Positions 7,383 to 38,700 of a stretch of 64,000 nucleotides of DNA are shown piece after piece (the first letter of the stretch is position 1; each line of letters starts with the position of its first letter). Source of the DNA: Deltaproteobacteria bacterium RIFOXYA12_FULL_58_15 (lineage in GTDB: Bacteria; Myxococcota; XYA12-FULL-58-9). The position numbers and the translations under genes are program-made. The stretch is taken from contig MGST01000120.1 in assembly GCA_001798605.1 (NCBI GenBank), positions 1 through 64,000 on the forward strand. Reading direction: 5' to 3'. The notes under the pieces are model-generated. The model worked only from the letters and a program-made list of their open reading frames with translations. It was not told the DNA's origin and did not search any database.

Positions 7383-9047
7383 CTAACTTCTCGGCAGATG
7401 CTTTCTGGCGAAATCATAAGCGTTTCGCCAGCAGATCTTCTCAACCAATTCTTCGATGCCGATGGCGTCAATCCCCCGCGTGCTGCGGTTCTCCCGCAGA
7501 ACATCGCGCAAGTCGTCGGCGAGGAGGTCCCATTCGGTCACCGTGGCGTAAAGAGGAACCGGCGTCACCGCGCCGTCAAAGTCGGAACCGATGCAGATCC
7601 GATCCCAGATGCTGCGCTTCTGCTCGGAGGTCTGACTTGGGTCATTTGCGATGGCGTCGACAACACCTAGAACATTGACGCCAAACAGCGTCCGCCATCG
7701 CTCGGGCGTGGGGCTCAGCCCCTGTTCGACCCCGAGAACCCGGCGATCGAGAATGAGGCCGATGAGCCCCTCGGAATCATTGATGATGCGAATGTCTTCG
7801 TCGGCAAGGTTCAGGCCCCATCCGCTGTAGCCATTGATAATCCACTGGTCGTTCTCTCGCTTCTCGTTGGCGATCAGCTCATCGATGGTCTTTACGCCCG
7901 AGTAGGCCACGTGGCTCGCGACGATCGGCAGCTTCTTCCAAACTTGGGAGGAAGTCTTGGTCCGCTGGTTGTGCGGCAGAATCACCTCATCGTAGAACTG
8001 CCGGCGTGAGCGAGGACTCATGTGCTTGACGTCAATGAGGATCCGCCGTCCACCCCGATCGTTGAGCTCTTCGTCGAGATCGAGGAGCTCGCGCGCGACC
8101 CGCATGCCGAGCGCTTTGCGAGTCTCGAAGCCCTCATACATTCGTGGGCCTTGGTCCATCACGATTTGACCGATTCCGGGAACGCTGCGTGCATGGCCAC
8201 ACAGGCCGTTGTCGAAATGGTGGGCAAGAGTGATGAAGAAGAGCGGATGCGGCATCTCTCGAAAATATCGGATGCGGTCGACCATGGTCTCGAAGGAGAC
8301 CACGTGGTTATCTGGTCCGAGGGAGATGGTGTGGCCGCCCTCGATCGTCAGCACCATGGCGACGTCGGTCGTCTCCCCCTCGATGATCTTTTCGAGCTGA
8401 TTCGCCTCGCGAACGATTTGGTAGCGGCCCTCGACGTTCTCCTGGAAACATCGACCATTGCGGTAGGAATGGACAACTCCTCGTCCGAGCACATGGTCGT
8501 CGCGAACGACATAGTCATATTCCCGCCGAAACTCCTCCCAATAATCGTACTGCTCTGATGTCAAATACTCGAGGTGGGCGCGACCATAACCCAAGTAGAT
8601 CTGTTCCAACGCGACTCGCGCGCGTCCCGTGTTTCTCGTGATCCGCAGGAGCTCACCCAACGCGCCCATCGCGCCATCGCGCAGATACGCGGCGACAGCC
8701 CGCACGGCGGTGACGCCAGTGAGAGCCCGCACGGTCTCACGTGTAACCGAGGTGCGAAAGGCCTCGGGACAGCAGCCCAGAAACCCCTTCTCGATCGGTG
8801 TGAAGGAGGCAAACACCAGCCGAGACCTCCCCTGAACGAGCTGGGCCGGCGTGGATTGCGAGTAGCGTGTTGCCGCCACGCCTCGCTTCTGCAGAAACTG
8901 CAGGGTGGGTTGCGGTTGCCACGGATGAAAAACGTTCGGATCTGACTCAAGAGGCGTGTTGCGCATGCGGTTGAATCCGTACATGCTGGGATGACAGTGT
9001 AGGTCCGCAAACATTCTAGGCATTGTCACGTGCTCTTTCTCATCCAC
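7383..9047 (-). CDS. M19 membrane-dipeptidase-like metallohydrolase
   Basis: A protein of up to 554 residues in the amidohydrolase superfamily. The first beta strand carries FADLHCHP, the HxH-type metal site. TIEGGHTI supplies the bridging Glu, TLAHHFDNGLCGHA and VASHVAYSGV supply later His ligands, and GSDFDGAVTPV near the C-terminus supplies the Asp. These occur in the order of renal-type dipeptidases (peptidase M19). The protein is some 150-200 residues longer than typical M19 enzymes because of a long segment after the first strand. There is no signal peptide, so it should be cytoplasmic. GTG at 9047 is used here; ATG at 9023 or 9014 are alternatives. Likely acts on dipeptides or related amides. 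Confidence 0.8.
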   Translation of the reverse strand: MDEKEHVTMPRMFADLHCHPSMYGFNRMRNTPLESDPNVFHPWQPQPTLQFLQKRGVAATRYSQSTPAQLVQGRSRLVFASFTPIEKGFLGCCPEAFRTSVTRETVRALTGVTAVRAVAAYLRDGAMGALGELLRITRNTGRARVALEQIYLGYGRAHLEYLTSEQYDYWEEFRREYDYVVRDDHVLGRGVVHSYRNGRCFQENVEGRYQIVREANQLEKIIEGETTDVAMVLTIEGGHTISLGPDNHVVSFETMVDRIRYFREMPHPLFFITLAHHFDNGLCGHARSVPGIGQIVMDQGPRMYEGFETRKALGMRVARELLDLDEELNDRGGRRILIDVKHMSPRSRRQFYDEVILPHNQRTKTSSQVWKKLPIVASHVAYSGVKTIDELIANEKRENDQWIINGYSGWGLNLADEDIRIINDSEGLIGLILDRRVLGVEQGLSPTPERWRTLFGVNVLGVVDAIANDPSQTSEQKRSIWDRICIGSDFDGAVTPVPLYATVTEWDLLADDLRDVLRENRSTRGIDAIGIEELVEKICWRNAYDFARKHLPRS

Positions 9048-10371: not shown

Positions 10372-11571
10372 ATGGCCAGAAACGCTTACAACAAACTCAC
10401 CAAGATGCTCGACCGCTTGGTGGGAACGCTTGCTGGCCCGCTCGACCTCGACCCCGAACAACTCTTGCGCGAGGCCGAAGCGGAGGTTGGTGCCTGTTTC
10501 CACAAGCAGCCATCCGTACAGCCACAGCTCGGCTATTTTTTTGCTGACATGGAGGAGCAGAACCCATCCGATCTGGGTCGGGCTCTATTGATTCTGAGTT
10601 GCAAGAAGTTCCTAACCAACCGGTTGTTGCTAGAACGAGAACTGCGCGCCGAGCCGTCCTGCCAAACTCGAGCAATCAAGCAGCCGGTCTTCATCGTCGG
10701 TCTTCAACGTACTGGTTCCACTTACCTTCAGGCGCTGCTCGCAGACGACGATGACGCCCGTGCGTTTCGCCTGTGGGAGCTCGCTCATCCCACATCCAAC
10801 ATCTCCTCCCGGGCACGTCAGAGAAAGGCGAAGCTCACGTGCCTGGCCCGCTCGTTTTTGCAACCCAAGATGAGCGGCATCCATCCGTTGTCCTTTGACT
10901 CCTTCGAGGAGTGCATGTGGCTGTTTGCCAACTCTTGGGCGGTTGTCTGCTACGGCCTGCAAGCGTACCTGCCGCGTTGGGAGCAATGGCTCGCAGGTGC
11001 CGACATGGCCGAGCACTACCGCTTCTACCGCCGCCAGCTACAGTTGCTTCGTGGACATGACGATGGACGTCGCTTGGTGCTCAAATGTCCGGATCACCTC
11101 TGGCATCTAGATGCCCTGTTGAACACCTTCCCTGACGCTCGCATCATTTGGACGCACCGGGATCCGCTGGCGATCGTGCCCTCCTATTGCAGTTTGACCG
11201 CACAAAATCTAATCAGCCTCTTCGGTCGGTGCGATCCCGCTCGAATAGGTGATCACGTTCGGACACGTCTCTGCTCCGGCATCGACCGCGGTCTGGCTCA
11301 ACGGGCCCTGATCTCGCCGGAGCAGATCATCGACATCCAATACGACCAGCTCGTGAAGAATCCGTCTGAAACCATGGAACGGATCTACAGACATTTTGGG
11401 TGGCCCATGGGCGAGCGTTACCGTTGGCAAATCGGGCAGCGCAACCAACGCACCAAGAAGCGGATCAGTCACGCATACGCACTTTCCGACTATGACCTCA
11501 CCTCAGCTCAAATCCGCGTGTCCTTCGCGCCATACTACGACTTCATACAACAGTGGTTGCCCGAGGAGTGA
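10372..11571 (+). CDS. PAPS-dependent sulfotransferase family protein
   Basis: A 399-residue protein. FIVGLQRTGSTYLQ (107-120) is the 5'-phosphosulfate-binding P-loop of sulfotransferases. WTHRDPLAIVPSYCS is the 3'-phosphate motif (R..S), and IQYDQLVKNP matches the later conserved region. It fits the Sulfotransfer_3 type, which transfers sulfate from PAPS to carbohydrate or lipid acceptors. The ATG at 10372 has GGAG eight bases upstream. It diverges from the metallophosphoesterase gene across 136 bases, which should hold both promoters. It is the first gene of a plus-strand series (transporter, radical SAM enzyme, glycosyltransferase fusion). This suggests a sulfated product, but the acceptor is unknown. 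Confidence 0.85.
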   Translation: MARNAYNKLTKMLDRLVGTLAGPLDLDPEQLLREAEAEVGACFHKQPSVQPQLGYFFADMEEQNPSDLGRALLILSCKKFLTNRLLLERELRAEPSCQTRAIKQPVFIVGLQRTGSTYLQALLADDDDARAFRLWELAHPTSNISSRARQRKAKLTCLARSFLQPKMSGIHPLSFDSFEECMWLFANSWAVVCYGLQAYLPRWEQWLAGADMAEHYRFYRRQLQLLRGHDDGRRLVLKCPDHLWHLDALLNTFPDARIIWTHRDPLAIVPSYCSLTAQNLISLFGRCDPARIGDHVRTRLCSGIDRGLAQRALISPEQIIDIQYDQLVKNPSETMERIYRHFGWPMGERYRWQIGQRNQRTKKRISHAYALSDYDLTSAQIRVSFAPYYDFIQQWLPEE

Positions 11572-11580
11572 TCGAGTAAG

Positions 11581-12021
11581 TTGGCTGCAGAAAGGACTTT
11601 TGAACAAGATGAACGAGCGCGTCCACCCAAAGCAAGGATACGGCTGGTCCCAATGAGTTTTCTCCTTGTGGTCGTTTTGTGCAGCTTGGCGGCGATTCTG
11701 AACGTCGGTGGAATAGCGCTCTTCAAGTACGAGATCGGCCGCTACGCCCTCGAAGGGCTCCTTGCCCACATCCTGTTCGCGATTCGGCCGCTCGTCATCG
11801 TCGGGGGCGTAATGCTTCTGGGCTCCGCTGTGTCCATGCTCAGGGCGCTGGCTTTGGCCCCGATGACGACCGTTGTGCCCATCACCATCGGCTTCAATTT
11901 CATCTTCACACTCCTTCTGGGTGCCCTCTTCTTGCGCGAGCACGTGACTTTCGCCACCATCGGCGGCATGGTGCTCATCCTCGGCGGTCTTCTGCTGATC
12001 AATGTGGGCCGCTCCACCTAA
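11581..12021 (+). CDS. Small EamA/SMR-type membrane transporter
   Basis: Up to 146 residues with four membrane spans. The end region (PITIGFNFIFTLLLGALFLR, EHVTFATIGGMVLILGGLLL) is the typical second half of an EamA or small multidrug-resistance domain. Only one four-helix unit is present, so it would work as a dimer, as in SMR or ArnE/ArnF-like proteins. The TTG at 11581 is nine bases after the sulfotransferase gene; ATG at 11653 gives a more usual length of 122 residues. Its place between sulfotransferase and radical SAM genes suggests export or flipping of a lipid-linked product. That is inference. Confidence 0.75.
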   Translation: MAAERTFEQDERARPPKARIRLVPMSFLLVVVLCSLAAILNVGGIALFKYEIGRYALEGLLAHILFAIRPLVIVGGVMLLGSAVSMLRALALAPMTTVVPITIGFNFIFTLLLGALFLREHVTFATIGGMVLILGGLLLINVGRST

Positions 12022-12049: not shown

Positions 12050-13255
12050 GTGTCCAATCCCAATGTTGAGCTATTCCGACAACTGCAAAAGGAAGGCCGC
12101 GATCCAGCGCGACTGCCCTGGGCGGGGCGCGAAGTTCCCCACGTCGTCATCGACATCAATCAGAACTGCAACATAAGCTGCGATGCCTGCTACAAGAATA
12201 AACACACGCAAGAAAAACCGTTGGTCCAAGTCCAAGAGGAAATCGACCTCGCCTTGACCCAGCGCAACTTCATCGACATCACCATCTCGGGTGGCGAGCC
12301 CACTCTTCATAGCCAGCTTCCAGAGATTCTCGCGTACGCAGCCAAAAAGGGCTTGCGCAGCATGATCCTCACCAACGGTTTTCGTTTCGATCTCGACGTC
12401 CTCAAACGGCTCAAGGCGGCCGGCCTAACCGAGATTTTGCTCCATATCGACACCCATCAACATCGATCGGATCTCCCGAACGTCAACCTGGAGAGCGACC
12501 TCAATCCGGATCGCCACCACTACGTCGAGATGTGTCGGCAGGCGGGGCTGAGTGTGTCGTTTGTGCTGACACTCTATCGTGACACTCTCGACGACCTCGC
12601 TTCCGTCCTTGCGTTCAGTCAGAGCGAGCCAAGCCCTGCACGCGGCATGCTCGTCACCTGTTATGCGGAATCAGTCAACTACGATCGATCCCTATTGGAA
12701 CGCGACTCCGGCCTTCAACTCCTCACAAGCGATGTCGTGCGTTACCTGCGAGAGAGAGAGAACGCCTATCCCGTCTTCTATGTGGCCTCCAGTCACAACG
12801 TCGAAGACATGCGGTGGTTGGTTTACATCGCCGCGGTCTCCACCGACCGCGACCAACAACTCACCAAGCTCTATGTGGATCCGCGGCACAAGCTCATGTT
12901 CGCATTGTTCTTCCGCGCTCAACGCTGGCTCCTGGGCCGCTACTACTTTGCAGAAACCTCCATGAAGACCAGGCAGGTGGTAACCTACCTGCTCACCTAT
13001 GCTGTACTGTCTCTTTCTCCACGCACATCGTTTCGCGTCTTGCGGCTGCTTGCCAAGGCGCTCCGAAACGGAAACCTGCGTCTGTCCCCGGCCGTGTTCC
13101 AACAGGCCCCCAATCGACTCTCGAGCGGCGAATACGAGACTTGTCAGGATTGTCCGGATTCCACCGTGCGCGACGGCCGGCTCGTTCCTGTATGCTTGGC
13201 GGACATCGCAGCTCCAGAGGAGCTGGGCGGAACTTACGGACATGTCACCAGGTGA
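12050..13255 (+). CDS. Radical SAM enzyme
   Basis: A 401-residue protein. CNISCDAC (Cys40, Cys44, Cys47) is the CxxxCxxC site for the SAM-binding 4Fe-4S cluster. SGGEPTLH is the GGEP motif of the radical SAM barrel. Near the C-terminus CQDC and a further Cys about 15 residues on (VPVCLAD) may bind an auxiliary cluster, as in SPASM-like enzymes. GTG at 12050 has a perfect TAGGAGG ribosome site. The frame upstream to 12002 overlaps the transporter gene, so GTG is preferred. The gene overlaps the next by 14 bases, so they form one unit. The reaction is unknown. Context points to modification of a lipid or isoprenoid-type substrate, as HpnH-like radical SAM enzymes do in hopanoid pathways. Confidence 0.85.
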   Translation: MSNPNVELFRQLQKEGRDPARLPWAGREVPHVVIDINQNCNISCDACYKNKHTQEKPLVQVQEEIDLALTQRNFIDITISGGEPTLHSQLPEILAYAAKKGLRSMILTNGFRFDLDVLKRLKAAGLTEILLHIDTHQHRSDLPNVNLESDLNPDRHHYVEMCRQAGLSVSFVLTLYRDTLDDLASVLAFSQSEPSPARGMLVTCYAESVNYDRSLLERDSGLQLLTSDVVRYLRERENAYPVFYVASSHNVEDMRWLVYIAAVSTDRDQQLTKLYVDPRHKLMFALFFRAQRWLLGRYYFAETSMKTRQVVTYLLTYAVLSLSPRTSFRVLRLLAKALRNGNLRLSPAVFQQAPNRLSSGEYETCQDCPDSTVRDGRLVPVCLADIAAPEELGGTYGHVTR

Positions 13256-15500
13256 GACAATTTTTGCGAGTCTGGCGACCCTGGCCGCCCTTGGATGGAT
13301 CGCCTACTTTGTTCCGCACACGCTCAAGCTGCTCACACTGCAGACTCTAGAGTCGCAATCCCTTTCGCTAAACCGGGAGCATCCGCGTCTGAGCGTTATC
13401 GTCGCTGCTCGCAATCAGGAATCTACACTTCGCCAATCTGTGGATTCACTCGTGGCGCAGGATTATCCCAACCTCGAGGTCATCCTCGTTAACGATCGTT
13501 CGACTGACGCCACCGGCAAGATCATTGATGAGCTCGCTCGACAGCATTCACGAGTTCGCGCTCTCCACATCGAGAGCGTGCCCGAAGGCTGGTTAGGGAA
13601 GGTACACGCTCTAAACAAAGGCTGCGCGCTTGCCACCGGCGAGCTGTTTCTCTTTGCGGACGCCGATGTTCTGTTTCGCGGACAGGCTCTGCGTCGCGCA
13701 GTGGGATTGTGTCTCTCGCGGGGATGGGATCACCTGGTGGTCTGTCCCAAGATCCCCCGTTCCTTCTCGTTGCTCAGTGTCCTCAAGACCACCTTGACGG
13801 CATCGGTTGTGAACAAGTGGGTGATTCTCGGCGAAGATAATATGCAGGTTCAGGAGCCCGTGGGGATTGGTGCCTTCAACCTGGTGCGTCGCGAGGCCAT
13901 CGAGCAGGCCGAAGGCCTGGAATGGCTGAGGATGGAGCTCCTCGACGATGTGGGCCTCGGCGTGCTCCTACACCGCCATTTGTTCAAGAGCGGCTTCGTG
14001 CTCAGTCACGATGAGGTCTGCTTGGACTGGTACAACACCACCGGTGAGGCCCTTGAGGGCCTCCATAAGAACGTCTATGCGGCGCTTGGTCACTATCGCA
14101 TCTTTGGGGCCCTTTCCTTTGCATTGCAGGCCATGGCCTTTTGCGGCTTACCCTTGGCGTTGGTCGACCCGCAGATCCGCACAGTCGTTTGGCCAATCAT
14201 CGCGGCGGCAGTTGTCGCCCTGCTTGGGTTTGCCGTAACAGGCAGGAGGCGCGCTCAATGGTCCTTCTGGGCACTTCTTTTGTTCCCTCTTGGCGTGGGA
14301 CTCATCCTCATCGCTCTCGTGCGCGCGGTTCTATCCTTCCACATCCGCGGCGAGCTCACCTGGAGAGGGACCACCTATCCGGCAGCGGCGCTACTGAGCG
14401 GCCACCGCGTCCAGCCCGCGGTCATTCGCCAGCGCGATTGGATCGCCCGCTATTTCAGAGTCCTGGATGATTATGGGGAGGACTTCGATTGTTACTACGG
14501 TCGCCTGGAGGCCGGTGCCTCGCAACCCTCCTGGCACAGGATTTCCCACATACGCGCCGACGGCCTCTATGGACTGGTGCAGGCCATGCGGCACTCAGGC
14601 ATCCGAATCACGCGTCTGTCCGAAAACAGACGCGTTCGCTCACAGCCTGCCGCATTGATGCGCCTTTGGCTGACCGTTCGTGCCCTCGTTGAGCGCCGCA
14701 ATCGGATCTCAATCCAGTTTCCGCTCTGGCGAGATCGGATCAAACCACTCGTAGGCAAGTGCGGCCCGCCGCTCGTCAGATTCATCCTCTTCTCCCGCGA
14801 GGAAACCAGGCAGGTGAGTGAAGTGGCCACCTCTTGCAAAGTGAGCAAGAACAGTCTGCTCCTGTGGGCGCTAAATCGAGCGGTGGAGTCTCTCAAGTTG
14901 ACACCGCGGACCTCCACTCTCTGGCACGTTCCAGTGAGCCTGCGCGGAATGCTGCACGATCTGCCCGCCCACTTCAATATGATCTCCAACCTATTGGTGG
15001 TGGCTCGATCCGAGGACACACCCGCGAGTCTCCATGAAGCGATCAAGGCTCGTCTGCAGAGACAGGACCACTGGGCCCTGTGGTACAAAGCACAACTTGC
15101 GCGCTTTCTGAGCTACCGTCAGTTTCGCAAGACCGTCCTCAAGGGCCACGAAAAGCTATTGGCCAAAGAGGAGACGGTGCTCACTTTTTCCAACCTTGGG
15201 GCCTTGCCCGACGCGGTGGATCTCAAGGAGGCAACCGTGGCCGGGAGCCATGACCATTGGCTCATCAGGGCACCGACCTTGTACTACAATCCGATCTCCA
15301 TCACTGCGGTGACATGGAATGGTCGTCTTTCCCTTACTCTCACCGCTCACCCATCGCTGGCTATCGATTCCCAAACGGCCGACGCGGTCCTGGAAAAATG
15401 CAAGACTCTTGCCCTGACACCCGTCTCCAACCCTGACATCGGGAACTCTTTTGTCAAAGAGCTTGCGGTCGAGCCGACGACATCACCGCGACCAAGCTGA
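13242..15500 (+). CDS. Family 2 glycosyltransferase fused to HxxxDG acyltransferase-like domain
   Basis: A 752-residue two-domain protein. Residues 1-30 form a membrane anchor. Residues 48-270 are a GT-A fold: LSVIVAARNQ, LVNDRSTDAT and the DxD-type FADADV (139-143), with GWLGKVHALNKG as in hopene- and carotenoid-linked glycosyltransferases (HpnB/CruC-like). Two to three membrane spans lie at about 285-370. From about 380 the protein resembles the CoA-dependent acyltransferase/condensation fold: HIRADG at 436-441 fits the catalytic HxxxDG. Later FSREETRQVSEVATSCKVSK, HVPVSLRG and NMISNLLVV fit the second half of wax-ester-synthase or PapA-like enzymes. The ATG at 13242 overlaps the radical SAM gene. 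It may both glycosylate and acylate one lipid. The fusion is unfamiliar to me. Confidence 0.8.
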   Translation: MSPGETIFASLATLAALGWIAYFVPHTLKLLTLQTLESQSLSLNREHPRLSVIVAARNQESTLRQSVDSLVAQDYPNLEVILVNDRSTDATGKIIDELARQHSRVRALHIESVPEGWLGKVHALNKGCALATGELFLFADADVLFRGQALRRAVGLCLSRGWDHLVVCPKIPRSFSLLSVLKTTLTASVVNKWVILGEDNMQVQEPVGIGAFNLVRREAIEQAEGLEWLRMELLDDVGLGVLLHRHLFKSGFVLSHDEVCLDWYNTTGEALEGLHKNVYAALGHYRIFGALSFALQAMAFCGLPLALVDPQIRTVVWPIIAAAVVALLGFAVTGRRRAQWSFWALLLFPLGVGLILIALVRAVLSFHIRGELTWRGTTYPAAALLSGHRVQPAVIRQRDWIARYFRVLDDYGEDFDCYYGRLEAGASQPSWHRISHIRADGLYGLVQAMRHSGIRITRLSENRRVRSQPAALMRLWLTVRALVERRNRISIQFPLWRDRIKPLVGKCGPPLVRFILFSREETRQVSEVATSCKVSKNSLLLWALNRAVESLKLTPRTSTLWHVPVSLRGMLHDLPAHFNMISNLLVVARSEDTPASLHEAIKARLQRQDHWALWYKAQLARFLSYRQFRKTVLKGHEKLLAKEETVLTFSNLGALPDAVDLKEATVAGSHDHWLIRAPTLYYNPISITAVTWNGRLSLTLTAHPSLAIDSQTADAVLEKCKTLALTPVSNPDIGNSFVKELAVEPTTSPRPS

Positions 15501-16404
15501 CACATGTAAGCAAGAGACAGACCGCCATGGTCCATCCCACTTTGCGTATGTGACGCAGGTGAGGAGGGCGTAAGGTTATCCAGAAGGAGAACAACAACAC
15601 AGGGACCGGTGTGGCAGCCGTGCCGACGGGAAAGACGCCTGCTCGAGTGAAAGCATCGAGCAGGGCGATAGCTGAAACGCCCGTGATGATCGGTGCGATG
15701 AACTTCACGAAGGTCATCGCCGATTTTGCCCGAGCCGTCACTCGACGCACGGCCATTGTCGCGACGCACAGGACGATCACCCAAACCGAGGCTATCGCTG
15801 CTGCGTGGGACGCGGCTGCACCTCCCGCATAGGCCACGGGAAAACCGAATGCACCGATTGTTATGGCGACCAACAGCTCACCTTCGAAAGTCTTCTCCAG
15901 ACGACCAAACACGAGCAACATCAATACGGCTGCAGGAATCCCGGGGATCAAATACGTCAGAACGGTATTCGCCGGACCCATCAACGCAGCCACAACACCC
16001 ATTGTAATGGCAAACAACGGAGCGATGACGAGTTGTCGCCATGCTTCGGCCGCGTTCTCGTGACGGGCCCGGGCGCCCCTGAGGTTCGTGACAATCATAA
16101 ATGGCTCATGCGCAAAAAACAGTGCCAATGCCGCCAGTGCGGTGAGCCCCGCGGGCGGCGGATTGGGAACCATGGACACGGTCGCCACCAAGGTGGTGAG
16201 AATCTGAGCAATGGCACCGGTCTCTTTCGGCAGCAGCACCCCGGCGCGGCGGCGCATCTTGTCGGGAAAGCCCGTCGTGAACGAAGCGCGATATCGCCTC
16301 TGTTCGGTAGGGGCAATTTTACGGCTTCGACCTTTTCTTGGGGCCGACGGATAATGTTCTCGACCCAGTGCGCCCGGGTCGTCTTCAACTGACTTATCTG
16401 TCAT
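15454..16404 (-). CDS. YwiC-like membrane protein
   Basis: About 316 residues with a basic cytoplasmic N-terminus and some eight membrane spans. LLPKETGAIAQILTTLVATV resembles the PKEHGAW start of the YwiC-like family (Bacillus YwiC, function unknown), and FFAHEPFMIVTNLRGAR fits its second conserved segment. ATG at 16404 overlaps the end of the upstream B12-radical SAM gene by 11 bases, so the two are probably an operon. The 3' end overlaps the convergent glycosyltransferase fusion gene by 47 bases. Role unknown. Confidence 0.7.
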   Translation of the reverse strand: MTDKSVEDDPGALGREHYPSAPRKGRSRKIAPTEQRRYRASFTTGFPDKMRRRAGVLLPKETGAIAQILTTLVATVSMVPNPPPAGLTALAALALFFAHEPFMIVTNLRGARARHENAAEAWRQLVIAPLFAITMGVVAALMGPANTVLTYLIPGIPAAVLMLLVFGRLEKTFEGELLVAITIGAFGFPVAYAGGAAASHAAAIASVWVIVLCVATMAVRRVTARAKSAMTFVKFIAPIITGVSAIALLDAFTRAGVFPVGTAATPVPVLLFSFWITLRPPHLRHIRKVGWTMAVCLLLTCVSLVAVMSSARPQAL

Positions 16405-18007
16405 GTCGGCCAAGCTGAGCGACACGTCCGCGTGGATACAGGAGCACACGCCAGAAGAAAGAACGGACCGTGGCCATGAAGTGCGTCGGTCGCATGACGA
16501 GCCGTTTGGCCAGACCGAAGATCTGCCCGCTTAAGAACAACGGGTGTGGCAGAAACACGCGCAAGGCGCGGAAGATGACGCCCGCGGCAAATCGAATCAT
16601 ATAGCGCTGGTAGCGATCGACGATGTACCAGATGTCGAGATCGGGGGTCTCCACCATGGTCGGCATAAACAGCATGTAGGGGATCTTCCCCATGCGTTCG
16701 TAGGGCCGAGCATCAATGAGCCAACCTTCGCGCTCACACTTCTCGTACAGAGGCGTTCCTGGGTAGGGACGGTAGATCGAATAGAAGGGAACCGTGCCAT
16801 GCTGTTTCATGATGCGAAAGGCATACTCATAGGTCCTCATCACGGTGTCTTTAGTCTCACCGGGGAAGCCCATGATGAACAGGGCCATCGTGTCGATGCC
16901 GCTCTTTTTGCACAAGGCCAGCGTCTTCTCGACCTCCTCGAGGCGCAAATCCTTGTTGGCGATACCGTCCAAAACCTCTTGGCAGCCGGACTCGATGCCA
17001 AAGTTGAGGTAGATACAACCGGTGCGCTTGCACAGATCGACGAGCTCTTCGTCGAAGCGGTCGGCCCGGATGCCGTTGGGCGTATCCCACGTGATGCCGA
17101 GGTCAGCCTCGGCCAGACCCGCTAGGATAGCGTGAAACCGAGCGCGGTCGAGTGAGAGGTTGTCGTCCTCGAAATGAAAGTGGCGAATGCCATGCTCCAC
17201 GGCCAGCATCTTCATCTGACTCACAACAAATTCGGGGCTGTGGGTGCGATAACGATAACCCATGGTCGGGTGAATCGAGCAGAAACTACAACGAAAGGGA
17301 CAGCCGCGGCTGGTAATGACAAAGACCGCGCGGTCGGAGCCAGGGTAATCGATGTACGGTCGGGAGGGATAGCCCTCGCGGTTGAGTCGGAAGTACTGCT
17401 CAAAATCGAGCCCTGCCCACACCGGCGCGTAGTCGTCGAGATTTTCGATGACCGTGGCGGGGTTGATGCAAATGCTGCCGTCCTCTTTGATGTGACCCAG
17501 ACCCGGCACCGCCTTCCAGTCGGTTCCTTCTTGGAGCGCATGTAAAAGGCCAGCCAGCGCGATCTCACCCTCACCCACGACGACTGCATCGAGTCCAGGG
17601 GCATCGCGCAAGTAACGTTCCGGCTCCAGAGACACATCGGTGCCACCAACGATGACGAAGGACTCCGGAAGGAGCTTGCGGCACAGCTCGATCGTGCGCA
17701 GCGCATCATCATAAAAAGTTTCGGCGGCAGATGTAATGCCGACGACGTCTGCCTTGTAATCCCGCGCCCGCTTCGCAATCTCTTCGGGCGACAAACCAAA
17801 CAGCACGGGCGGCGATGCTTGCTCAAGCATCGCGAAGTCGGGGTACGCGAGGGCGTCGAGAATCTCGACTTCGACCCCTGGCACCTTCTTGGCGGCGGCT
17901 GCCAGATACAGAAGGTTCAAGGGCACGCCCACCCAGGGTCCATCGGGATAGATGAGACTCGAAAAATGGGCGGGTGAACGAATCAACATCAGGCGCATGC
18001 GCAACAA
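16394..18007 (-). CDS. B12-binding-domain radical SAM enzyme
   Basis: A 537-residue protein. The N-terminal 180 residues form a Rossmann-like cobalamin-binding domain (GVPLNLLYLAAAAKK; KADVVGITSAAETFYDDALR; FVIVGGTDVSLEPE; VVVGEGE), without the DxHxxG lower-ligand motif. CPFRCSFC (Cys236, 240, 243) is the radical SAM cluster site, and YLNFGIESG and GFPGETKDT are standard barrel motifs. The C-terminal 100 residues contain amphipathic or membrane-attached helices, as in BchE/HpnJ/HpnP-type lipid-modifying enzymes. TTG at 18007 has GGAGG six bases upstream, so it is preferred to ATG at 17998, which has none at the right distance. Likely methylates or rearranges a lipid or polyketide-like substrate. 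Confidence 0.85.
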   Translation of the reverse strand: MLRMRLMLIRSPAHFSSLIYPDGPWVGVPLNLLYLAAAAKKVPGVEVEILDALAYPDFAMLEQASPPVLFGLSPEEIAKRARDYKADVVGITSAAETFYDDALRTIELCRKLLPESFVIVGGTDVSLEPERYLRDAPGLDAVVVGEGEIALAGLLHALQEGTDWKAVPGLGHIKEDGSICINPATVIENLDDYAPVWAGLDFEQYFRLNREGYPSRPYIDYPGSDRAVFVITSRGCPFRCSFCSIHPTMGYRYRTHSPEFVVSQMKMLAVEHGIRHFHFEDDNLSLDRARFHAILAGLAEADLGITWDTPNGIRADRFDEELVDLCKRTGCIYLNFGIESGCQEVLDGIANKDLRLEEVEKTLALCKKSGIDTMALFIMGFPGETKDTVMRTYEYAFRIMKQHGTVPFYSIYRPYPGTPLYEKCEREGWLIDARPYERMGKIPYMLFMPTMVETPDLDIWYIVDRYQRYMIRFAAGVIFRALRVFLPHPLFLSGQIFGLAKRLVMRPTHFMATVRSFFWRVLLYPRGRVAQLGRHDR

Positions 18008-29737: not shown

Positions 29738-32700
29738 TCAACTCTTCGCTTGCCGCAGAGCCAATCCGAGGGCCTGTCGCAGTTTGAAAAAATCCTCGGA
29801 GCAAGCAAAACGCATGAGGTCCATCGCCTCGGGTGATTCTTGAATCACCGCCGCACGCTGGTCATCGGCAAGATCGTCCATGCCACGCAACCGGAGAATA
29901 GCCCCAACCGCCTCTTCCACGTCGCAGGAAACCAGCATGGCAATTCTTCCCGCAGTCAGAATACTCCCCCAACGCCACCGGCTGAAATCAACTTCCCCAT
30001 AGGAGCTTAGGTAGCTCTGCACCTTGGGTTTGGACCTTCCGCGAATCGCCTCCGTCATCGGTGCCGCAATGGTGTTGGCCCACACGGGTGTTTCGACAGA
30101 TCCACCTGCGGGAGAGCTCTCCGGCTCCACCGCCAAGCACAAGCCGGCCACCACCCCACCGAGCTCGGGCGCGCTGAGCTTTTCGGCCAACGTGTGGCCG
30201 GTGCGATAAAGCTCCGCTGCCCGGGCAATGAGGAATGCTCGTTGGCGATCTGTTGCGTCGGTGGCAAGCGTCGATCCCATGAGGATGGCTGGCGACCCGA
30301 GCAGCTCGGTTCGATAGCCGAAGCCACCGCCCCGCCAAAGATAGATGGATACCTTCGGCATACCCAACGGTTCCAACACTTTGGTGAGATACTGCAAGCG
30401 GGAGTCTGTGGGCGCAAGCTTGTCGCGCTCCGTCACCCCGAGGGTGTCCAGCACACCAGGTTGGGTCAACTCTGCGAAACGGGCCAGCGGCGCAAAGAGG
30501 TCTTCGAGCGGGCCTCCCTGATCAGGATGAAGCAGTCCTTGCATCCGATCGGCATCGGTGAGCGGCCGCTGGGGTCCAGCGGGAACGGCTGGTCGACATG
30601 CCTCGACGAAGCGCCGAGCCTCATCGTCACCAGGTAATAACACCAACAAAGCTGCGTAGTGCCCATACGCCTTGTCGTTGTCTCCCACCTGCCCGGAGAG
30701 CCGCGCCAAAATCCGCAAAGTCTGCACATCGAGCGGCGCCACATCGAGAAGCTCGCGGTACAGCTCCGTTGCCTGTCCGTAGAACTTTGGATCCAGTGCA
30801 TATGTGTTAGCGAGGTTGCGCAGCAACTCCATATCGTCGGGCCTGAGCTCCCGCGCCTTGAACAATGAAGCAGCAGCCCGCTGCAGATCACCGGTCCGTT
30901 GTAGGCAAACCTCGGCGAGTTCTTGGTAGCGCCCCACTCGTTCGTCGACATCGTCAACGAACTCGATGGTTCGCTCTTCAACACGCACATATGTCGCGTA
31001 GTCGCCAACGTTCTTGGCGAATTCAGCATACCCTGCCCTCAAATCCACATTCTCCGGTTCGGTCACGAGAGCCTTTTCGAAAAACTCCTTCGCCCGATCG
31101 GTATCACCGGCAACATCGTGGTACGCGCGGGCCAACTTGGCAAAGAACGCACCGTCAACCTTCGAGTCGTCGAGAGCGAGCAATCGTTCACCGACAACCA
31201 GGAATTGACGCCAATCATCTCTCTCTTCATAGAGAGCGAGCAGCTGCTTGAGAAGCGCGGAATCGCCGGGTGTCGCTTCGACAGCTCGCTCGAGCATCGT
31301 CGCAGCACGCGCGCTGGAATTGAGGCGAGTCAGGAAGATCGCTGCGAGCGTACGGTAATGCTCGGCAGAAGTCTCGACATCGGGTGCCGCCGTCGCCTCA
31401 CGAATTCGGAGATCGGCAGCCTCCTCCCAACGGCCAGTCTTCTCATAGAGCTCGCGCAAGATGACGAGGGTCTCCATTGAGTCCGGCACGGCTCGAACTG
31501 CGCCTTCCAGTTGCTGAATCGCAGTGGTGACATCACTGCGTCCCAACGCCAGTTCCGCCAGCTTGCGCCGGACCTGCAATACTTCATTTGCGCTCACGCT
31601 CGACTCTGCGGCGCTGAGGTAGCGCGTCCATTCCTGCTCAGCCTCATCGTTGCGATCGGCGGCGCTGAACATCTCCGCCCTGGTGGCAATCAAGTCGCTG
31701 CGACCGGGATCACGCTCGAGGATTCGACCGGCAACCATCAACGCCTCATCAAAAGCCTTGGTCTGCCGGTAGCACTCACTCAACGCCAAGAGATACCCCA
31801 GTGGCGTCGCTGCATCGTCGACGTCAACCTGAGACGCCAAGTGCGCCAAAGCGCCTTCGAACTGATTGCGCTCAAATTGCAGCAAGCCCTGCGCCAAACG
31901 TGCGGGGCCATGATCTGACTGAGCGCTCAAGCTCGAGGCAAAACAATCCCCGGCCCGTTCTTCATCGATGAGGTTGTCCCTCCAGATGACGCCCATTCGA
32001 TAATATGTGTCGGCTCGCTCGTCTTCTGTCTCGACGCGGGTGACACGTTTCTCGAGAAGCTCAACGAGCTTCTTCCAATCGCCCTTGCGCTCGTAAGCGA
32101 AGCTCAGGGCCTTCACCACTTTCCCCGGGGGATCGTCCGCGGCGGCAGCTACGCCCTCATATGCAATAATTGCTTGTTCGGCGTCTCCAGCCGCTTCATG
32201 TGCGCGCCCGAGGAGCATCAACCAAACAACGCGTTCATCACCGTCAAGCTGTTCAGCTCGCTGACGTGCATTTTGCCGCAACGGCACCGCGCACATGACA
32301 GCCTTGTCGTAGATAACATCGACAGACAACTTGGTGGCCAGTTGCGCCACCAAGAAGAGCACATCGAGATCTTGTGCCTCTATGGCGAGCGCCAAGTCGA
32401 AGCACTCGAGCGCCTTCTGGTCTTGCTCGATCGCCAGAGCAGCCTGCCCCGCCTCAACAAGAAGGTCAAATCGCTCTCTGTCTTTGAGATCATCAGGCTC
32501 CGAGAGCTTGCTGAGCAGTGCGCCCAAGACTGTTTCGTTGTCACCGGCACGGCGTGCTCTTTGCAACAAGAGTTCCCTGGCAACTGCAGAGTTCGGATGT
32601 CGATCAGCCAGAAACTCCATCACTTGCTGAGCGTCACTGTCGCGCCGTGCATCTCTGAGAATCGAGAGGAGTCTATTCCCCAGCCCGAGCTCGTGCTCAA

Positions 32701-35700
32701 CCGTTGTATTCCCCCCCAGCAGAAGTCCCAGCGCCCCGTCGGTGTTGCCGCTGTCAATGAGCAAGCAGAGCAGCCGCGTAACAGCTGGCGACTCATCGGG
32801 CGAAGCATCGACTGCGGCTTTGAGCAGGCCGAGTTCCCGAACAGTATCCCCGAGATGATCGCGCGCGGCGTCCGCCGCGCGGATCATGCATACATGGGCA
32901 GCTTGTGCATCAGATTGGCCAGCAGCGACGACTTCCAACAGTTCGATCAGTTCGTGCCACTTCTCGTGACTCTCGGCGTAGGCAAGGCAAAATTCGCGAG
33001 GCTCGTCGATGGAGGTGTCGAGCTCGACCACCTTGCGAAGCACGTCAAAAGCGGTTTCTGCGTCACCTGCTGGGCTCTGCGCAATGGTGCCGGCATGCCG
33101 CAGCAATGCAATCTGCTGTTGCACGTCGCTTTGGTTAGCCTGATCGAGAAGGACCTTGATCGCCTGTTTGGCCTGCGCATTCGCAGTCAACGCTTCGGCA
33201 AGCGCTTCAGCCAACGACGCAGAGGGGACCTCTGCGTGGCTGCTTCTCAGAATACCAACGGCCGCCTGCGGGTCGTCGAACCGCTCCTGCAACACGGGAG
33301 CGTACCGTAGAGCCAAACGTGCCCGCTGATCCGGCATATCAGCAGCAGCTAGCTCGTTGTTCACAAAGGATATGAATTGGTCCTTGTCGCCCAATTGAGC
33401 CGAGATCTCGACAAAGCGGTCTTGCACATCGAGATCGTCGGGCGCGCGCCGCGTAAGAATCTGCAAGCATCGCAGCTCGCCCACAACGTTGTTGCTCGCC
33501 TGAAAAGTTTCCCTCGCCTCCCGCAGACGCTGAATCTGCCCCTGCTCATCCCACACGCCGCTGTCGATCTCTTGCAGCCAGAATGCGGAGATCTCCTCAC
33601 GGTCACCAAGTGCCTCAAGAACCCGCTCGGTCTTCTTCACCCAGCCTTCGGGCCTCTCGAGCTCGGCCGCGCCCTTGAGCAGCTCATAGGCAGCCGCAGC
33701 GTTGTCCTGGTTCAAGCGAAAATCTGCGAGATCCATTCGCAAACGCACTCTCTCGCCTATTTCAATGTCGGTGTCGCCACCAAGCTCGATGACCCGTGCC
33801 ACAGAGGTGAGACGGTCATTGCCCTCAAATAGTTCCATCGCCAACTGATGGGCCTCTACGGTGTCGAGTCCAATTCCGAGCGCCTCCAAGAGTACTCCCC
33901 TGGCGGTGTCCGTCTTCTCGGCGCGCAACCAAGCTCGAGTGGCCGCAAACAGCCCGATGGGCAAGTCGTTCCCGCCTGCGGCTCGAACGGCTTCGTCTAC
34001 GAGGGTGGCAGCCAGGACCGGATCGTCATCGGCAGCGAGCTCCGCCAGCATCTGCTTTTCGGCTGGCGTTGCCGCATCGCGGTTGTACAGCTCATCGAGG
34101 GCCTCGCGGCCATCACACACCAATCCAAGATGCTCCAGGGCAATGACAAAAGAATGAAGGTATCGCTCACGTTCCGAGTCTTGTTCGTCCAACCGCTTGA
34201 ACAATGCTGGCCCAAGTGCCGCCAAGATCGTCGGTCGATCGAGCTCTTCAGCGAGTCGGTAAGTTGTCCTCATGTTTTCGAGGGTGGGCGCCTGACGAGT
34301 GGCACCATCCATGAGCTTCAGGGCCCGCTCTTTGTCGTCCAATCTATCAACGGCGATCCGGGCCGCCCTCGCAAGTCGCGCACCTGCCTCGGCACCTGAC
34401 AGATCGTCGGACCGGGCTTCCAAGACGTCCACCAGCTCGCCGTAGCGATTTGCAAGTTCCAACGCGCGAATATAGGCTGGCTCATTTGCGGCGTCGAGTT
34501 CATAGGCCCGCTGCAAAGCCTGCAGCGCCAATTCGCTCTCCTCCATGGCCTCTGCGAGATCGCCCGCTTCACGCCAGGCCACCGCATCGTCGCCAAGAAG
34601 CCCGGTTGCACGAACCAATGAGTCAATTGTTTGTGGGTAGTTCTTGTCTTGCCATTTCAGCTGTGCACGAAGCAACCATAGCGGTGCCGTCTCGGATCCC
34701 TCTAGGACCGCCAAACTCTCGGCAAGAATCCGAATCGCGCCCTTGTTATCGCCGGCTCCGACGGAGGTCTTTGCTGCAGCGAGAACAGCGTTTGCCTGCT
34801 CAGGCTCGAGCAGATGTGCTTCAGCGAACAGATTTCGTGCCTGTGCCTCCTCGCCGAGCTCCCACCAGAGGATATGACCACGACGGCGCAGCCATTGGGC
34901 GCGACTGTGATCGTCTTCAGCGCATTCGATCGCCACTTCCGCGCCCGCAGCACGAATACTGGGATCTTCGAGCTCGACGCCACAACCAAAGTAGAGTTCA
35001 GCCCAGTGGCTTGTGCGCTCGTCCTCGGCGACATTGACCAATGCCGCAGCCGCTTCCACCCACGACTCTTTGTTGACAAGTAGGGTCGCAACCCGCAACC
35101 ATACGGTTGCAGCGTCGGATGGCTTTCTTTCCGCGCGAACCCGTAGCGCCTCGATGAGCTCATCGGTCCGCCCGGCGGCTTCAAGGCCCTTCTCCAACCA
35201 TATCTCAGCGGCGGTGTCGCCCAACTCGATGAGGCGCCGCGAGAGGGCTATGGCTGCATCGGCATCACCAGAGGCGAACTCGCTTTGAGTGCGGTGCCGA
35301 AGGACGCCGAGAATTCGCGGGTCCTCTTCGGATAGCATGGTCTCGAGTGAAACCGCAGCGCGGTCCAGCCACTCTGTGCTCTGGATGCTTTGGGCCACGC
35401 AAAAAACTGCCCATGCGGAGGACGCCTGACTGAGATTCGCACTGGCAAGCTGTTCCTCGAGATCGCCTTCGCTATCCGGGACGTCCTCACCCGCCTCGAT
35501 GAGCTCGGCGCGGGCCAACAGCTGCAACCAGGCTCGGTCTTCCTCGCGAGCTGTGGCCGACCGTTCGAGACGCCAGCGGCCAAGCTCGCCAAGACGACCA
35601 TCCTGACGCCACGCGCGGGTGGCGATATCCCACGCCTCCACGTTTGCCCCCAGGTCCATCGCCCTTTCGAGAAATGGTTTGGCCGAAACGCGTCGGTCGG

Positions 35701-38700
35701 CATCCACCAGTGCCCGACCGGCGGCAAGTGTTGCCTCTCGGTCAAAAGCATCGACCGCTCCGATCAGCTCCTCGATGCACTCGACGTCACCACTGTTGGC
35801 GCAGAGCTGCGCGAGTTGCCGAGTCTCCGCCTCATTGCGGGAGTGCATTGCGCGCAGCGCCTTGGCTGCAATTGTCGGATCATCCGAGTGCTCAGTGGCC
35901 ATCTCTGCGAAAAGCCGCAATCGCTCCTCGCGCGTCTTGACCGCCTCTGTAGCGAACGCCAGGCGCTCAAGCCAAACCAAGGCCGATGGCCAATCGGCAC
36001 GTGCACTGTGGCGCTCAACCAGCTGCTTCTGAAGTCGATCGGCGCTCGTGTCTGCGTCGGCCGCCTCTCCCAACACTGCGAGGGAGCCTTCTTCGTCCCC
36101 GTCAGTGCGCAAGTACTCAGCCAATTCTTCAAATACCGCCGCGCGCCTGGCACCTTCTCGGGCCTCGGCCCAATCGCGAAACGCGACAACGGGATCACCC
36201 ACGTCTGGGTGCGAGAGCAGAAGATCGATCTGCATGCGACGAGGCGTATCCGATTCAGGTCTCGCTTCGTTCATGCGCGCACACCACTTGATCGCGGCCT
36301 CAGGATCGTTCATCTCGTCAGCAATGACTTGAGTCAGTTCGGCAAATCGGGGGTCGTCGGGATTCAGGTCTGACTCGATAGTCTGCTCGAGGTGGCGCAC
36401 CAGATCCGGCCACAACTCATATCGGCGCAGGGCCTCACCAAACCTCGCATTGGCCTCGGGTGAGCCCGCCACCACTTGATTGAGCGCACGCAGAATGGCC
36501 TTGGCCGACGCGTCGTCACCCACCTTCTCAGCGTAGACCTCAACGCTGCGAAGTCCGTAATCGAGCGCGATTGCCGCATCGGCAGTCAATTGACTCAGAG
36601 CAGACAGAGAAACCGCGAGATCAACCCAGCGTCCTAAGGACTCGTACACCTCGAGCAACGCTTTGCGGGTGTCCGTGTCGTCGGGTCTGCTGTTAACAAT
36701 GCCTTGATAATACGGGATGGCCTCTTCACTGCGCCCAAGATGATGATGCAGGATGTCACCAATTTCGCGACCTAAGTCGGCGGCGGCCTCGGGCGTAGCC
36801 ATTTTTGACTGATCACGCCGAAGCTCCAACAGCGCTTCCCACTTGCCTTCCGCCGCGAGCATGTCACCAAGCGATCGTTTGAGGGCGTCCTCAGATGTTT
36901 CAGGAAACTCTTCAACAAAGGCCCGCTGCAAACCAACCAAACCACTCGACTGGAACTCCCGCGCCAACGCAGCAGCGCGTTCAAATGCTGCACGGCGCTC
37001 ATATCTCTCCTGTCCCGCCTGGGGCGATTCAAAAAGCAGGGTGTAGTAGTGGATGAGTGCATCTTGCCAATCTGAGCGCTTCTCGGACAGATTGGCCATG
37101 ACCCGATGGGCTGGGGCTGCAAATGGATCCACCTCGAGCAACCTGACGCAGGTCTTCTCTGCGGCTTGATCGTCCTGCGCGTCGATTTGTGCGCGTAGAG
37201 CGCGGGCCAAAAGACCCGGCAGCTCATCCTTGCTGGCAACCTCAATTTGAAATCGCAGGGCCTCAGCAGCACTTGCGAGGTCCCCTCGCTCCTTGGCGAC
37301 GCCTTCCATCGCTTCGGCAGCACCTTTGGCCTGGTCTCCGTGTGCCTCGACGATCTTGCGATAAATGGTGACCGCCCGATCGAGCTCGCCCAAAGAACGT
37401 CGTACTTCGGCGGCACGAACCCACAGCAAGTCAGCACGGTCGGCTGCAGCCCATTTCTCCAGGAGATCGCTAGCAGCGGCGCGACGGCCCGCTTTGGAGA
37501 AGACCGCAACCAATCGTTCACACAACGCTTCGGTGCGCAGACCCGCTTCCCCTGCCTCGACCAGATGCTCCGCCTCTCCCTGTTCATCCTCCACGGCCCG
37601 GGAAAGCTCTGCAAGGCGAAGGTGCAATGATGCCATGTTCTCGCCGTGACGCTTCGCTTGAACAACCGCCGACTGCAAAGCTCTGCGACTGCCTTCAATG
37701 TCGCCTCTGCTCTCCATCAATTTCGAGAGCGTGGTCCACGCAGGCACATTGGCAGGAAACACCTGCACGGACTCCCGCAACGCCTTCTCTGCGTCCTGCT
37801 CACGATCGAGTAACTGCCACAAGATCTCCGCACGTCTGGCCAACACGCGACCACGACGTTCGGAGGATTCCGCTGCCACCGTGAGTCGATCCAGCGCACG
37901 GGCTTCACCGTGCGGGTCCCTCTGCTCCTCGGCGAGTGCCAGCAACGCTTCAGCGGCTTCGAGCAGGTAAGGGTTGGCGTCGAGAGCATGTTCGAGATCA
38001 CGACGCCGAGCGTCGGCGTCCGTTCCCATCGACTCGCGAGTCTTAGACAGAAGCAATAGGTATGCGGCACGGCGCGTCGGCTCAGTGGTTGCCCCAGCAG
38101 CAGCCTCTAACCGCGCCATGATCTCGACGATGTCTCTTTCATGCTCGAGAATCGGTACAAGGAGCTGTAACGCTTCGGCATCGTCTGGCTGTGCATCGAG
38201 AATCAATTCGAGGTTGCGCTGCGCAGCTGCTGTGTCATTTCGCTGCTCTAGCTCGAGGCGAGCGGCAGCGATCCGCGAGCGACGGACCTCTTCGGGCCTG
38301 GCGCTCACGCGAGCGGTCTCTTCGAGCAACCGGATGAGGCGGCTCCACTCACCGCGATCCCGCAAAACCTTGCCGAGTTCGTCACGAGCTGAGCGGTTGG
38401 ACGGATCGAGCTCCACGGCTCGCTCCAGACAGGCAATGGCTTCAGCGGTGGGTCCTTCAGCGACAAGGGTGACGCGAGCAAGGCGCGTGTAGGCAGCCAC
38501 AAGATCAGGAATAGCTTCGGGATCCCCGCGTTCTTCCTCGACAGCGAGGACGTCCTCGTACAGCGCCCGCGCTCGTGCCACTTCTCCGCGGTCTTCGGCG
38601 AGTTTCGCCAAGCGTAGACGCGCTGTGCGATTGCGGGGGTCAACGTCGAGCACCTTATAATAACGACTGGTTGCGCTCTCGACGTCGCCCAGCCAGCGCT

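Follow-up and report, generated by a model that had tools for sequence, protein, structure and literature searches.

Closest described systems

In green sulfur bacteria CrtC, CruC and CruD act in sequence, giving carotenoid glucoside laurate (PMC6166724). The protein analysed here follows the same proposed two-step logic as CruC and CruD, glycosylation and then acylation. However, CruC and CruD are separate proteins, whereas here both parts lie on one chain, and a carotenoid substrate is unsupported. Glycosyl and acyl transfer also meet on one chain in PglB of Neisseria, a fusion of a phosphoglycosyltransferase with an acetyltransferase, but both of its domains come from families unrelated to those of our fusion.

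On the glycosyltransferase (GT) side, the HpnB-, HpnI- and CruG-type membrane GT2 enzymes (TIGR03469, TIGR03472 and NF045692) share with the fusion the GT2 core, the N-terminal helix and the C-terminal helices. HpnB is the nearest NCBIfam profile and spans residues 11-380 of the fusion protein, but the scores (108 bits for HpnB, 39 for HpnI and 59 for CruG) stay below the respective cut-offs (379, 310 and 600), so the GT half is a member of none of these families. On the acyltransferase side, WS/DGAT (PF03007 and PF06974), PapA (PF16911) and NRPS condensation domains (PF00668) share with the C-terminal domain the HxxxDG, VPVSLR, N, SNLG and final-strand motifs in this order. The domain differs from all of them in giving no significant profile match, in its shorter start, in reading SHxxxDG and in being fused behind a GT.

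The enzyme classes at this locus are known and their order is new; with them comes a compact acyltransferase-like family unlisted in Pfam and NCBIfam. The statement of the preliminary description that no enzyme with such an order of domains has been described stays uncontradicted by the open-access literature, in which no GT2-HxxxDG fusion was found; absence there is weak evidence, most subscription papers lying outside that search.

Architecture of the fusion gene

The window is a stretch of 64,000 nucleotides (contig MGST01000120.1, positions 1 to 64,000) of Deltaproteobacteria bacterium RIFOXYA12_FULL_58_15, a member of the phylum Myxococcota. The features discussed below are the following.

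10372-11571, + strand: sulfotransferase opening the probable operon (Pfam Sulfotransfer_3, E 1.3e-45), start approximate
11581-12021, + strand: EamA/TMEM234/SMR-like small membrane protein of 146 aa, below the Pfam cut-off, start approximate
12050-13255, + strand: radical SAM protein with a GTG start preceded by AGGAGG, profiles below cut-off
13242-14411, + strand: membrane GT2 (GT-A) part of the fusion, residues 1 to about 390, delimited by Pfam, NCBIfam and the shared tail of its relatives
14412-14435, + strand: junction QPAVIRQR, about 8 residues linking the natural GT end to DW, where conservation of the acyltransferase-like domain sets in
14436-15497, + strand: compact CAT/condensation/WS-DGAT-like domain, residues about 398/399 to 752 (about 350 aa), delimited by motifs and the homologue
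14547-14564, + strand: HxxxDG motif HIRADG, residues 436-441, with the putative catalytic His436

The fusion gene runs on the + strand from the ATG at 13242 to the stop codon ending at 15500. As first described, it is one uninterrupted frame of 752 aa that holds both a GT and an acyltransferase-like domain, and its coordinates, 13242-15500, are right.

The GT half is recognised by Pfam through PF00535 (E 2.3e-25, 89.9 bits against a cut-off of 23.3) and PF13641 (E 1.4e-18, 68.2 bits against 27). The two motifs from which a membrane GT-A domain had been proposed, FADADV and GWLGKVHALNKG, both fall inside this GT2 domain; FADADV is the DxD-type metal motif, conserved among the GT relatives, all eight of which read D(A/G)DV in the alignment. 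The half begins with a hydrophobic helix (6-24), followed by the catalytic domain, an LLDD motif, three hydrophobic helices (about 287-308, 314-332 and 342-360 by hydropathy) and a WRGTTYP tail. Its best relatives are 33-39% identical and about 380-420 aa long, and 51 of 58 related genomes contain some GT match, mainly to generic GT2.

The tail WRGTxYPxxxL and a few further residues close the chain in all eight aligned relatives, exactly where the fusion reads WRGTTYPAAALLSGHRV and continues. The one homologue found for the C-terminal domain, on a contig of Myxococcaceae bacterium isolate SSF41, is a free-standing protein, and its conserved part starts with DWIGEWFRV, which aligns with DWIARYFRV about 8 residues past the GT tail in the fusion. 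Since the GT relatives end and the stand-alone homologue starts at the junction, the gene is an end-to-end join of two complete proteins with a precise junction.

Such a fusion was seen once in our search of 195 Myxococcota genomes and contig scans, and the assembly is fragmented (381 contigs); both points would fit an artefact in which two unrelated genes were joined in a metagenome contig. Nevertheless, the in-frame join falls exactly between complete proteins and the gene belongs to a tight operon. GC and third-position GC are uniform along the fusion gene and its neighbours, so that composition gives no sign of a chimeric contig. We find an artefact hardly credible.

The operon

The four genes share one strand and are separated by short gaps at most, and the radical SAM gene overlaps the fusion gene by 14 bases; they thus probably form an operon that ends with the fusion gene. 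The named profiles nearest to the radical SAM protein, TrsS with 79 bits and the tetraether synthase Tes with 62 bits, score far below their cut-offs. Its relatives occur in 27 other Myxococcota genomes, and six of their neighbourhoods gave no matches to the fusion domains. Close to the operon, on the opposite strand, 16394-18007 encodes a B12-binding radical SAM protein, and a similar-looking frame precedes the radical SAM relative in another contig (L107, 5306-6946).

The C-terminal domain carries the motifs of an acyltransferase superfamily

No Pfam or NCBIfam family is significant for the C-terminal domain. HIRADG lies, as had been noted, at residues 436-441 (position 53 of the translation of 14391-15497), and the expected conservation of His436 was borne out by the homologue, which reads HVRVDG in register; the two family members agree at His436, Asp440 and Gly441. 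HxxxDG arises in 2.1% of shuffled copies of the domain, so the motif on its own is modest evidence. In the fusion it is followed by VPVSLR (from 563), SNLG (from 650), NGRL (judged by eye) and HPSLA, and HxxxDG, VPxxLR and SNLG are present in both members. The spacing from VPxxLR to [ST]N[LV][GP] is 87 in the fusion and 84 in the homologue, and the fusion shares its value with two Myxococcota WS/DGATs (87 in each), which are confirmed as such by PF03007 (E 9.4e-44 and 7.2e-34). An unforced MAFFT E-INS-i alignment of ten sequences places HxxxDG of all of them in one column.

PapA_C is the best sensible Pfam match, and a weak one (E 0.023-0.034). Aligned by hhalign with a 530-aa HHxxVDG family of Myxococcaceae, the two-member profile gives a probability of 56% and, as a single comparison, E 1.1e-4 over 144 columns; that family in turn matches the PapA_C and Condensation profiles, and the WS/DGAT set at 95%. 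The smaller L-INS-i alignment did not align HxxxDG with the motif of this family, and hhalign of the domain against a PapA-like set and directly against the WS/DGATs gave no support. PDB chains gave no match in sequence searches, whether the query was the domain or the two-row profile. Direct scores of the domain to recognised CAT families are 10-18 bits, which is the noise level of a whole-phylum search. Among the hits of this strength in other Myxococcota, one family proved to be an HHxxVDG acyltransferase family, and another (L157) is a spurious frame, by eye antisense to an apparent aromatic amino acid lyase gene. Such scores alone therefore prove nothing, and here they carry weight only in combination with the order of the motifs and their spacing. 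Given the two differing alignments, the region before VPxxLR is not firmly alignable. Taken with these limits, the motif order and the shared spacing support placing the domain in the CAT/condensation/WS-DGAT superfamily. This likeness had been proposed earlier, and the motif set and its order agree with it, whereas the shorter stretch before HxxxDG and the Ser in place of the first His do not.

We note that the 530-aa family (L139:1142-2734, L140:512-2116, L142:852-2456 and L143:404-1996) has N-terminal hydrophobic stretches before its HHxxVDG acyltransferase-like domain, with weak Pfam matches to Condensation and PapA_C. A match of the C-terminal domain to DUF1259 (E 0.02-0.09) was rejected as noise.

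Could the shortened domain be inactive?

HxxxDG stands at about residue 40-50 of the domain, versus 130-148 in the compared WS/DGATs and PapA-like proteins, and about 85-95 first-lobe residues before it are missing in both family members relative to WS/DGATs. PF03007 and PF06974 give no match in the domain, and its motif reads SHIRADG, so it does not have both His of the WS/DGATs. Many other superfamily members need the second His only, and this His is catalytic in PapA, CAT and BAHD. In WS/DGATs both His are needed, the first being essential, according to a passage of PMC9113324 that cites Stoveken 2009. With the missing first-lobe residues and with Ser for the first His, the C-terminal domain could be inactive. 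It might then be a degenerate, non-catalytic module that binds and positions a lipid or acyl chain, with the GT as the sole active enzyme. The shortened lobe and the single His fit this; however, the homologue, although only 33% identical, retains H, D and G alike, and the second His is the catalytic one in the families named above. We regard a non-catalytic domain as possible but unlikely. The domain may, but need not, fold and work like its larger relatives.

The preliminary description had asked for a structure prediction of the domain; AF2 models built from the two-row alignment have mean pLDDT of 33 and 44 and are too poor for fold comparison. Two Foldseek runs with them found nothing significant, a result that is meaningless at this model quality. 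Secondary structure in both low-confidence models runs helix-strand-strand-HxxxDG-helix, which is the expected order.

Distribution of the C-terminal domain

Among 195 Myxococcota genomes, the domain has a homologue in only one other (E 2.8e-35, 33% identity), and it is absent from relatives in the source organism's own family and order. A plasmid search with the domain gave no match, and of two scans of genome contigs with short peptide patterns the first found none and the second only the SSF41 locus; such scans miss distant relatives and do not establish rarity outside the phylum. A family of two members with one fusion counts against a bifunctional enzyme.

The SSF41 homologue lies divergently beside an LPG_synthase_TM/Glyco_trans_1_3 glycosyltransferase gene, and the same stretch holds KAS III-like, AMP-binding, short-chain dehydrogenase, P450-like and fatty acid hydroxylase genes. 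This setting, where a GT and lipid genes are again next to the domain, agrees with a role in glycolipid synthesis. No copy of the domain was found in the retrieved neighbourhoods of the ten best stand-alone GT relatives. As no recognisable copy turned up in the neighbourhoods read around GT and radical SAM relatives, the pairing of GT and domain rests on the fusion itself and the SSF41 locus.

The two halves might instead act on different substrates, the C-terminal domain forming an ester or amide on another acceptor in the manner of a condensation domain, with the fusion serving only for placement at the membrane. Condensation domains and PapA belong to the superfamily, and the operon combines a radical SAM protein and a sulfotransferase as tailoring pathways do. 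Yet both known members of the domain accompany glycosyltransferases, and the fusion and the operon genes scanned are without a carrier domain, which makes separate substrates rather improbable.

At L079:6940-9081, an LPG_synthase_TM region stands in one frame with a Glyco_trans_1_3 glycosyltransferase, and the frame after it resembles membrane acyltransferase-3.

Candidate acceptors

The preliminary description had compared the protein with CruC and CruD, and a fused counterpart of the two would make carotenoid glycoside esters. The CrtC-CruC-CruD precedent (PMC6166724) speaks for this, as does the one SQS/PSY protein of the source genome, whose SQS/PSY domain, the only one there, follows a polyprenyl diphosphate synthase within a single fused 701-aa frame (L159:6970-9075, G000:C106). 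Against it, no CrtI-family protein scores above cut-off in this genome (best 35.9 against 238 bits) and no pigment gene is present among the operon genes scanned. Carotenoid glycoside ester synthesis is therefore very improbable here, and the comparison with CruC and CruD stays an analogy. Squalene-hopene cyclase was likewise not found in the source genome. These two absences, not final in a genome that is 92.6% complete, make both carotenoid and hopanoid unlikely acceptors.

Membrane topology

By hydropathy, a single helix precedes the GT domain and three follow it. With the GT in the cytosol and all of these helices spanning the membrane, the C-terminal domain would lie outside, where there is no acyl-CoA; if helix 287-308 lies at the membrane interface, the C-terminal domain would lie inside. 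In several GT2 membrane enzymes the first post-catalytic helix is at the interface. The tail before the junction has 5-8 K/R in all nine aligned sequences, and its positive charge would favour a cytosolic C-terminal domain. However, the loop 333-341 is likewise positive, and this ambiguous topology counts against a bifunctional enzyme.

Proposed mechanism

We suggest that the protein is probably a bifunctional membrane enzyme, in which a lipid-acting GT2 is fused end to end with a compact HxxxDG acyltransferase. At the membrane face, the GT part would use a nucleotide sugar to glycosylate a lipid or a lipid-like alcohol. In the C-terminal part His436 would act as the general base, and an acyl group from acyl-CoA or acyl-ACP would esterify a hydroxyl of the product. 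The sulfotransferase, the small EamA/SMR-like protein and the radical SAM enzyme may modify this glycolipid further and help to move it. What the sequence shows is one chain of two complete domains with a precise junction, the conserved motifs and the operon layout; the two activities and the order in which they act are what we infer, as are acyl donor and lipid acceptor.

A more detailed version is speculative, and we hold it to be unlikely as a whole: a glycolipid synthase in which the GT2 product passes directly to an acyltransferase without much of its first lobe, representing a new minimal CAT family, and which together with the radical SAM protein and the sulfotransferase makes an undescribed acylated, perhaps sulfated, glycolipid.

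A GT and an acyltransferase on one chain would be direct genetic evidence that both steps belong to one pathway, and would give a lead to what the stand-alone proteins of the two families do. A structure of the domain, which appears to do without part of the usual fold, would show how small a CAT-like fold can be. An unknown bacterial glycolipid may be the product of this operon, a candidate that can be tested.

Two other frames of the window were observed in passing: 7383-9047 encodes a 554-aa protein that matches peptidase family M19 only in part and below cut-off, and 29738-40276 on the - strand is a very long frame of 3512 aa.
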